Shown piece by piece: positions 14,845 to 17,018 of a stretch of DNA of 64,000 nucleotides; the stretch's first letter is position 1; each line of letters opens with the position of its first letter. The position numbers and the translations under genes were made by a program. Location of the stretch: contig NZ_VSLZ01000009.1 in assembly GCF_010747475.1 (NCBI RefSeq), forward strand, positions 1 to 64,000. The letters are read 5' to 3'. The stretch comes from Halorussus sp. MSC15.2 (GTDB taxonomy: Archaea; Halobacteriota; Halobacteria; Halobacteriales; Haladaptataceae). A model generated the notes under the pieces. The model was given only the letters and a program-made list of their open reading frames with translations. It searched no databases and was not told where the DNA came from.

Positions 14845-15486
14845 TTACTCCGACGGTTTCGCGGAAACCGTTTCGATGTCGGCGTTCCAATCGATGACTG
14901 CGTTTGCTTCAGTCGGTTGGATTCCCCGGTTTGGAACGCGGACGAGGATGAGGTGGAGGGGAGACACGTTGAGTCCACCATTAGTTTCGAGTTCTTCGAA
15001 TCGGAGCTGGAGCGATTGAGTCCCGACACCGCTAACTGACTGGAGAATCAACCGGAAGGATTGCCCGGAGACCCGAGCTTCCAATCCAATAACACTTTCT
15101 GAGCCAAAGTCTGTCTCATCAAGGAATGTACGCATCTCTTTAGAGGCTACTGACTCGTCCACGTATTTCCTCCAGTCGTCCGTCGTGAACAGTCGAAGTA
15201 TCGGTTCAGTTCCACTGCCCAACATACTGTGGTCGAGGTCGCGCTGTCTTGCCACGTCATAGGACGTTCTATTTAGTGCTGGTCCCGTAGTCACGGTCTC
15301 AGAGTATGACGTAGTGGTCGGTCGCTCCCTAGTCGTTCCCGAGGAGGTCGTGTTACTGTCCTCGTTCATCGTTGTCGCGTCGGTCGGTGTTCTCGATGTT
15401 CGTGTCGATTCTGAGGCGGTGAGGCACCCCGAAAGACCGCAAACCGAAAGTATCGCCGAGAGGAGCTGGCGTCGGTTTCTAATCAC
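14845..15486 (-). CDS. Tat lipoprotein encoded with a subtilase-like protein
   Basis: A 213-residue protein with NRRQLLSAILSVCGLSGC at the N-terminus: paired arginines and a lipobox ending in C21. A Thr/Ser-rich spacer (about residues 23-75), typical of haloarchaeal surface lipoproteins, precedes a domain of about 135 residues that I do not recognise. Codon use is more AT-rich than the window average. Its ATG overlaps the stop of the upstream subtilase gene by 4 nt (ATGA), so the two are translationally coupled and probably act at the same place, outside the membrane. Confidence 0.75.
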   Translation of the reverse strand: MIRNRRQLLSAILSVCGLSGCLTASESTRTSRTPTDATTMNEDSNTTSSGTTRERPTTTSYSETVTTGPALNRTSYDVARQRDLDHSMLGSGTEPILRLFTTDDWRKYVDESVASKEMRTFLDETDFGSESVIGLEARVSGQSFRLILQSVSGVGTQSLQLRFEELETNGGLNVSPLHLILVRVPNRGIQPTEANAVIDWNADIETVSAKPSE

Positions 15487-17018
15487 AGGTCAGGGACATG
15501 AAGGACGTTACCAAGCTTTGAGGCGCTACTCGGGCAAACTACTTTGTCGCTCATATTGTTGTACTTCGAGAGATGCCTCTCGTAGCTAATACTTCCGTGT
15601 TCAGCGTAATGGAGGGAAGAACCAGCGGCGACAACTGGGGCCGCAAACGAAGTACCGGATTTTGCAGTTCCATCGTCGGTTTTGAAGTTGTAACAACTGT
15701 AGACGTTCGGTTGGAAGCCAGACGTACCTAAAGCATCGTAACACCAAGAGCAGTACTCGTAGTTGCTATCGGTATCGTCGTAAAGAACAGTTGCATAATT
15801 AGATTCATTCGCTCGGTTGTAGCCACCTGAACAACTCCCGCTGTACCCACCGACACCGATAGTGTAGTAGGAAGTAGCAGGATGACAGACCTCGCTTTCC
15901 ATACTATCGTTTCCAGTTGCACAGGCGACAGCGTATCCAGCACTCGCGTAGGATTGCAATTCCTCGCAAAGGGTACTTGTGCAGTAACCGACGTCGTTAG
16001 TCGTCTCGACCGACATACTACTTACCGGGATATCATTCGTCAGAGCGTACTCAATTGCTTGACGAGCGGCACTAGCATTCGCGTTACCCGTGTCTGGATT
16101 GTAAACTTCTAGCGGGACGATGAAATTAGAATGCGGGTCTTTCTCTTTCAGCATGTAAGCGACCGTGTCCGCACAGTCTGTTCCGTGTGAATGGCCGCTT
16201 TTCCAATCACTGCCAATGAAATCTTTGGCTTTGTCAGTATCGATACCGTTCCATTCAACGTTAGCGTCTCCGATAGATTTTGCCCAGTTTTTCCCCCAAT
16301 CTGTGTCCCCACTATACCCGGTACCAATGATTCCAACTTGATTGATGGTCGAGATAGTGTAGTTTACTGACTCGAAATCACTATGGCTAGCGGTCTTTAA
16401 ATCATCCGCAGAAGGCGTCGAGCCACTAGCACTCACGTTCGAGTTTGCGCTATCTGGTAACTGGAGTTCGGGGTCAAAACCGATTTCGAGCACGAAATCG
16501 AGGGCCGCGATTTTCTCAAGGTCGTCGATAGCTACGTCTGAAAGCCCGACCTTTGTAGAAATTACCTCCGGAATAAATTCAATATCTCCAAAAGCTTTGA
16601 GGCGTTCAATCTCTTGTTCCCTCGGTTGCCATCCGTGTAGCGGACGACCGTACTGACCACGTGAAACTATTTCAGAACGCTCACCACACGTACTTACTGT
16701 AATGTCGATTGTTCCGGTTGAGGACGAACGGAGTTGGCGTTTTAAATCTGCTGTAAAGATGTGATTGCCGTCGCCAGTGCTTTCGTAGGCCTTGAGACGT
16801 TTCCGAAGCGTTCGAAGCTCGGAAACGTGTTTGAGGTAGACGCTACTCCTGACAGAAGTACCTTGCTGGCCGTATTTGTTATACGGTTGTGGAGTTTGCT
16901 TTTCCCTGATGCGCTCCGATGCAGTACCAACTCCGGCGAAACTCAGCGATGTGAAGGCTCCAATTCCCTTGATGTACTGACGCCGACTTGCGTTACTGCT
17001 ATTATCGTTACCAGACAT
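15483..17018 (-). CDS. Tat-exported subtilisin-like (S8) protein lacking the catalytic aspartate
   Basis: A 511-residue protein with a Tat-type leader (SRRQYIKGIGAFTSLSFAG, residues 11-29), an I9-like propeptide region (about 120-180) and an S8 domain (about 225-500). The His motif (HSHGTDCADTVA, H278), the oxyanion Asn (ATGN, N370) and the Ser motif (SGTSFAAPVVAAG, S457) are kept. The Asp motif reads VGIIGTGYSG, with Gly232 where subtilases have Asp; D238 and D240 are nearby. Thirteen cysteines in the protein, twelve of them in the S8 domain, suggest disulfides. Codons are AT-rich, hinting at transfer. It is coupled to a lipoprotein gene. It may be inactive, use another acid residue, or act as a binding protein. 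Confidence 0.8.
   Translation of the reverse strand: MSGNDNSSNASRRQYIKGIGAFTSLSFAGVGTASERIREKQTPQPYNKYGQQGTSVRSSVYLKHVSELRTLRKRLKAYESTGDGNHIFTADLKRQLRSSSTGTIDITVSTCGERSEIVSRGQYGRPLHGWQPREQEIERLKAFGDIEFIPEVISTKVGLSDVAIDDLEKIAALDFVLEIGFDPELQLPDSANSNVSASGSTPSADDLKTASHSDFESVNYTISTINQVGIIGTGYSGDTDWGKNWAKSIGDANVEWNGIDTDKAKDFIGSDWKSGHSHGTDCADTVAYMLKEKDPHSNFIVPLEVYNPDTGNANASAARQAIEYALTNDIPVSSMSVETTNDVGYCTSTLCEELQSYASAGYAVACATGNDSMESEVCHPATSYYTIGVGGYSGSCSGGYNRANESNYATVLYDDTDSNYEYCSWCYDALGTSGFQPNVYSCYNFKTDDGTAKSGTSFAAPVVAAGSSLHYAEHGSISYERHLSKYNNMSDKVVCPSSASKLGNVLHVPDL

Follow-up and report, generated by a model that had tools for sequence, protein, structure and literature searches.

A family of haloarchaeal S8 subtilases has lost the catalytic Asp in six of its nine full-length members and retains the catalytic Ser and His, and most of its genes are followed directly by a lipoprotein gene. 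Four points are established directly: the Asp is lost, this loss is conserved, Ser and His are kept, and the gene pairing is conserved. Tentatively, we read the pair found in the window (the whole 64,000-nucleotide stretch of haloarchaeal DNA that was analysed, from a host genome of 4.4 Mb) as a membrane-paired subtilase whose triad has shrunk to a Ser-His dyad, an enzyme that would be slow or conditional in its action and not a full protease. The Asp of the subtilisin triad is regarded as essential, and taking it out is a classic experiment of the laboratory. Here a natural clade lacks only this residue and keeps Ser, His and mostly a lipoprotein partner, which raises the question whether the crippled or anion-rescued state built by engineers has also been put to use by evolution. 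The family could yield a natural protease that can be switched, or else a new pseudoprotease system of archaea; its Asp-keeping sister proteins with the same partner serve as controls. Table 1 gives the features of the two genes.

Table 1. Features of the protease gene and of the lipoprotein gene that follows it (positions in the window)
Feature	Position	Strand	Basis
S8 subtilase gene, catalytic Asp replaced by Gly	15483..17018	-	intact ORF, 511 aa
Tat (twin-arginine) signal region, residues 11-34 (SRRQYIKGIGAF...)	16917..16988	-	sequence reading
Propeptide-like domain, residues 60-182, ending in FVLEIGFD	16473..16841	-	family conservation
Catalytic domain, residues 222-475	15594..16355	-	PF00082 match, alignment, fold comparison
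Gly232 (codon GGT) at the catalytic-Asp position, end of first core strand	16323..16325	-	alignment and predicted model
Catalytic His278 (HGTD)	16185..16187	-	9/9 family members
Oxyanion Asn370 (ATGN)	15909..15911	-	8/9 family members; Thr in G174
Catalytic Ser457 in GTS (GTSFA)	15648..15650	-	9/9 family members
Cys346-x4-Cys351	15966..15983	-	invariant in 9/9 family members
Cys423-x2-Cys426	15741..15752	-	invariant in 9/9 family members
Tat lipoprotein gene, 213 aa, GTG start	14845..15486	-	intact ORF; overlaps protease stop by 4 nt
Lipobox LSGC, putatively acylated Cys21	15424..15435	-	sequence reading
C-terminal lipoprotein domain, residues 67-213 (F..ETDF...V.......RL...SV.GVGT...LVRVP)	14848..15288	-	alignments; matches no Pfam family

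The Asp motif of the window protease reads VGIIGTGYSG, with Gly at residue 232. We aligned this protein by MAFFT with 39 viral-contig S8 domains and two members of its family. Every one of these 41 other rows has Asp in the column that Gly232 occupies, and the motifs of His278, Asn370 and Ser457 are in register. The first-pass annotation had claimed just this, a Gly for the catalytic Asp with the His, oxyanion Asn and Ser motifs kept, and the alignment bears it out. The closest homologue, G400 (58% identity), reads VGVIGTGYP at the same motif, and since it also has Gly there, Gly232 is not a sequencing slip. The other S8 genes of the host genome, which like the halolysins and further haloarchaeal S8 subtilases share the same fold, keep the Asp in 17 of 17 cases.

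The gene is otherwise intact, as had also been stated for its Tat signal, propeptide and Cys residues. The Arg pair of the Tat signal is kept in all nine members, and the window protease is probably exported via Tat, judging from this signal. Residues 60-182 are presumably a propeptide; in the predicted model they have an alpha/beta pattern, and 19 of the 126 columns over residues 60-185 are invariant among the six Asp-less members. The motifs C-x4-C and C-x2-C, invariant in the family, mark the window protease off from other haloarchaeal S8 proteins, and their four Cys residues (346, 351, 423 and 426) may be disulfide-paired or may together bind a metal.

The window protease matches PF00082 (peptidase family S8) with 44.9 bits against a curated cut-off of 21.8, and the complete Asp-His-Ser triad is absent, with Gly232 in the Asp column and His278 and Ser457 present. 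From its sequence we class it as an S8 homologue without the status of a complete-triad S8 peptidase. It has lost one triad residue, and the loss of at least one is a mark of subtilisin-like pseudoproteases. A sequence search of the PDB found no match for it. Its predicted model (mean pLDDT 60.7) has the subtilisin fold by comparison with subtilisin BPN' (1spb_S; Z 23.9, rmsd 2.9, 238 residues aligned). Strand 193-197 of this model corresponds to residues 228-232, so that the first core strand is predicted, at the same mean pLDDT, to end at residue 232.

All nine full-length members, and one C-terminal fragment (G446), are haloarchaeal. A protein search of 391 genomes of the class found matches in four, the window's own included. 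With profile searches, members turned up in 4 of 28 genomes of the window's own taxonomic family. For family f5 the count was 4 of 170, for f11 1 of 4, and for a draw across the order 8 of 392; these draws overlap each other. No member was found in 146, 125 and 26 genomes of families f3, f4 and f2 of the order, with at most 10 (f3) and at most 12 (f4) candidates per genome scored, and such zeros by themselves do not establish absence. No match was found in plasmids by tblastn, and no relative in viral contigs, for either the protease or the lipoprotein, and no defence or phage families were found. A search of a limited set of open literature found nothing describing this family or archaeal subtilisin-like pseudoproteases.

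The Asp column holds Gly in the window protease, G400, G415 and G438, Asn in G124 and Val in G174. The Asp is kept in G404 (Halorussus ruber) and G406, which belong to the genus group of the window, and in G286. His and Ser are found in all nine proteins and the oxyanion Asn in eight, G174 having Thr; within the Asp-less six this means His and Ser in six and Asn in five, where only 43 of the 254 columns of the catalytic domain are invariant. These six have mutual identities of 29-58%. Five of their genes have intact open frames (36-58% mutual identity), and the sixth, in G438, has an in-frame TAG.

Our tree groups all nine members together against outgroup S8 domains and places the six Asp-less members on one side of a branch with support 89/90, which becomes 100/99 for the five without G438. 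A tree with G438 among the Asp-keepers stays unrejected (p-AU 0.174). A single loss of the Asp is thus the simplest reading of the sequences and the one we prefer, with two losses possible.

The protease and the lipoprotein are a conserved pair. The lipoprotein start had been described as overlapping the protease stop, and it does so by four nucleotides, GTGA. In seven of the nine full-length members (the window, G400, G404, G406, G124, G174 and G438) the protease is immediately followed by a related lipoprotein, present in two copies in G174 and G438, at spacings from the 4-nt overlap to a 78-nt gap. The Gly-Cys of the lipobox is invariant in all 12 aligned lipoproteins. The proposed coupling is therefore real and conserved across genera; of the six Asp-less members, five have a related lipoprotein downstream. 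That the pairing goes with the Asp loss, by contrast, finds no support: the Asp-keeping G404 and G406 have the same pairing, with two domains per lipoprotein, so that pairing is independent of the Asp loss. The Asp-keeping protease of G406 has two such two-domain lipoproteins in a row on its 3' side (L057:2698-5383).

The remaining two members differ. No lipoprotein was detected downstream of the protease in G415. In the Asp-keeping G286 two lipoproteins of about 400 aa come after the protease (L062:1240-2463 and the preceding ORF), and they are of another type, which appears from the sequences to be a partner swap. The converse is seen in G172, which keeps the lipoprotein and both flanks in common with G400, its protease gene being reduced to the final 34 codons (L064:5100-5853 compared with L055:4616-6905); we read this as a clean deletion. 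Some related lipoprotein domains have no subtilase within 1.5 kb of them, hence the domain is not exclusive to the subtilase partnership. A wider haloarchaeal lipoprotein domain (F..ETDF....VVVVQ) was seen without a nearby subtilase at L031, L033 and L036-L040.

The arrangement resembles that of the dentilisin operon (PrcB-PrcA-PrtP) of Treponema denticola, where a subtilase gene also stands beside a lipoprotein gene, a likeness of arrangement that does not imply homology. The dentilisin report (PMC8167434) describes the lipoprotein PrcB as interacting with the subtilase PrtP, as needed for its presence and as its proposed anchor. PrtP is an active protease, and the haloarchaeal lipoprotein differs from PrcB in lacking a match to Pfam PrcB_C. 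Scanning 12 of the lipoproteins gave no Pfam name, and by sequence an assignment to PrcB_C (PF14343) was rejected with 0 of 12 matching at E up to 10; likewise, at E up to 1e-3, none of the 59 haloarchaeal genomes sampled contained the PrcB_C family. A fold comparison that included PrcB_C gave no useful match, the lipoprotein model being weak (pLDDT 50.7) and its alignment having 3 rows.

We propose the following for the pair. The catalytic Asp would have been lost in the ancestor of the six Asp-less members, with Ser and His retained. The lipoprotein probably holds the subtilase at the membrane; it may also assist in its folding or stability. The Ser-His dyad would still cut slowly and selectively, perhaps its own propeptide only, or one target presented by the partner. 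In the Gly members (four of the six) a small anion from the salty surroundings could take over from the Asp, in the way known from engineered D32G subtilisin.

Haloarchaea inhabit brines with molar chloride. The engineered anion-triggered subtilisins (D32A and D32G; PDB 3bgo, 3f49 and 6ube) have the same fold as the window protease, have lost the same residue and keep His and Ser; in the D32G variants the replacement is also the same, Gly. Engineered subtilisins without Asp32 are among the structural neighbours of the window protease model. They are laboratory derivatives of subtilisin BPN', whereas the haloarchaeal change is natural and common to a clade. According to the engineering work, the activity of D32G subtilisin is anion-dependent and chloride at 10 mM activates it weakly; for a different variant, the same paper describes a modelled chloride ion in another pocket without effect on the kinetics. 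The precondition for anion rescue, a small residue for the Asp with His and Ser kept, is found in the four Gly members, and since G124 has Asn and G174 has Val there, rescue is not a property of the whole clade.

Several observations count against the explanation proposed for the pair. The Asn of G124 and the Val of G174 leave no empty pocket, and G174 also lacks the oxyanion Asn. At least this one member looks dead from its sequence, and the two together argue that part of the clade may have gone further towards a dead domain. The in-frame TAG of G438, the missing lipoprotein 3' of G415 and the modelled chloride ion without kinetic effect weigh on the same side. The retention of His and Ser could partly be chance, as 17% of the columns are invariant anyway.

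The pair could also be a membrane-paired pseudoprotease, catalytically dead, which acts by binding: its ligand could be a peptide, another protease or its own propeptide left uncleaved, in the manner of CspC and CspA of Clostridioides difficile. This is a serious possibility. A triad residue is gone in six of nine members and never replaced by another acid, G174 is without two functional residues, and the conserved propeptide domain fits a propeptide that is not cleaved. CspC offers a precedent: one report (PMC6636752) describes it as a regulator that does not process its own prodomain. CspC and CspA share with the window protease the subtilase family, an incomplete triad and a retained prodomain, but CspC has lost Ser and His and kept the Asp, and the haloarchaeal family is the reverse, with Ser and His in all six Asp-less members and the Asn in five. 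The crippled Ser-His enzyme is therefore slightly favoured over a pure pseudoprotease, which on these sequences is nearly as likely, because Ser and His stay and only the Asp goes, opposite to CspC, and in view of the engineered Asp32-less subtilisins and the molar chloride. Of the membrane-tethered pseudoprotease suggested in the first-pass annotation, the Asp-less subtilase paired with a lipoprotein stands, and a dead enzyme is left as a real possibility beside the crippled one to which we tentatively lean.

A stronger form of anion help would make the Gly members natural anion-gated subtilases, in which chloride, nitrite or formate fills the pocket and completes the charge relay, giving a membrane-held protease active only in brine or with a particular anion. 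We consider this unlikely.

Also unlikely is an active protease in which a relocated acid, D238, D240 or another residue, is hydrogen-bonded to His278. Triad members are exchangeable in sedolisins, and D238 and D240 are placed just after the first core strand in the predicted model. The specific proposal of D238 or D240 fails on conservation, since G400 reads GYPSTTSW there and has neither acid. Nor does the catalytic domain contain any column in which an acid is common to the six Asp-less members and missing from all three Asp-keepers. The sole such column in the protein is E178, at the end of the propeptide, a position which we take to be that of a Glu common in subtilase propeptides, and for this reason we see no new triad residue in it. 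Columns acidic in all nine members, e.g. D260 and E353, would be the remaining candidates. An acid supplied by the lipoprotein finds no support either, as the acid of its T-[DE]-F motif is found in lipoproteins without a subtilase within 1.5 kb too and is Thr in both G438 copies.

That the subtilase is a decaying gene without present function is comparably improbable: the patchy distribution of the family, the in-frame stop in G438, the protease deletion in G172 and the C-terminal fragment left in G446 speak for it, but intact genes are found in five of the six Asp-less members, which conserve the signal, the propeptide, His, Ser and CxxC, and four of these five have a lipoprotein downstream.

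A few minor observations concern the surroundings of these genes. The G+C content of the pair (14845-17018) is 49-54%, compared with 65% in the neighbourhood, and the protease gene is below its flanks in all nine members, so that low G+C does not separate composition from transfer. The fragment in G446 (L063:4393-4773), which carries C-x2-C and GTS, lies downstream of an intact halolysin-like gene and is probably a remnant. In the host genome, one of the 17 other S8 genes (L005:611-3696; contig C1 near 748390) is split over two frames and has its Asp motif in a different one from its His and Ser, which points to a frameshift or a sequencing error.
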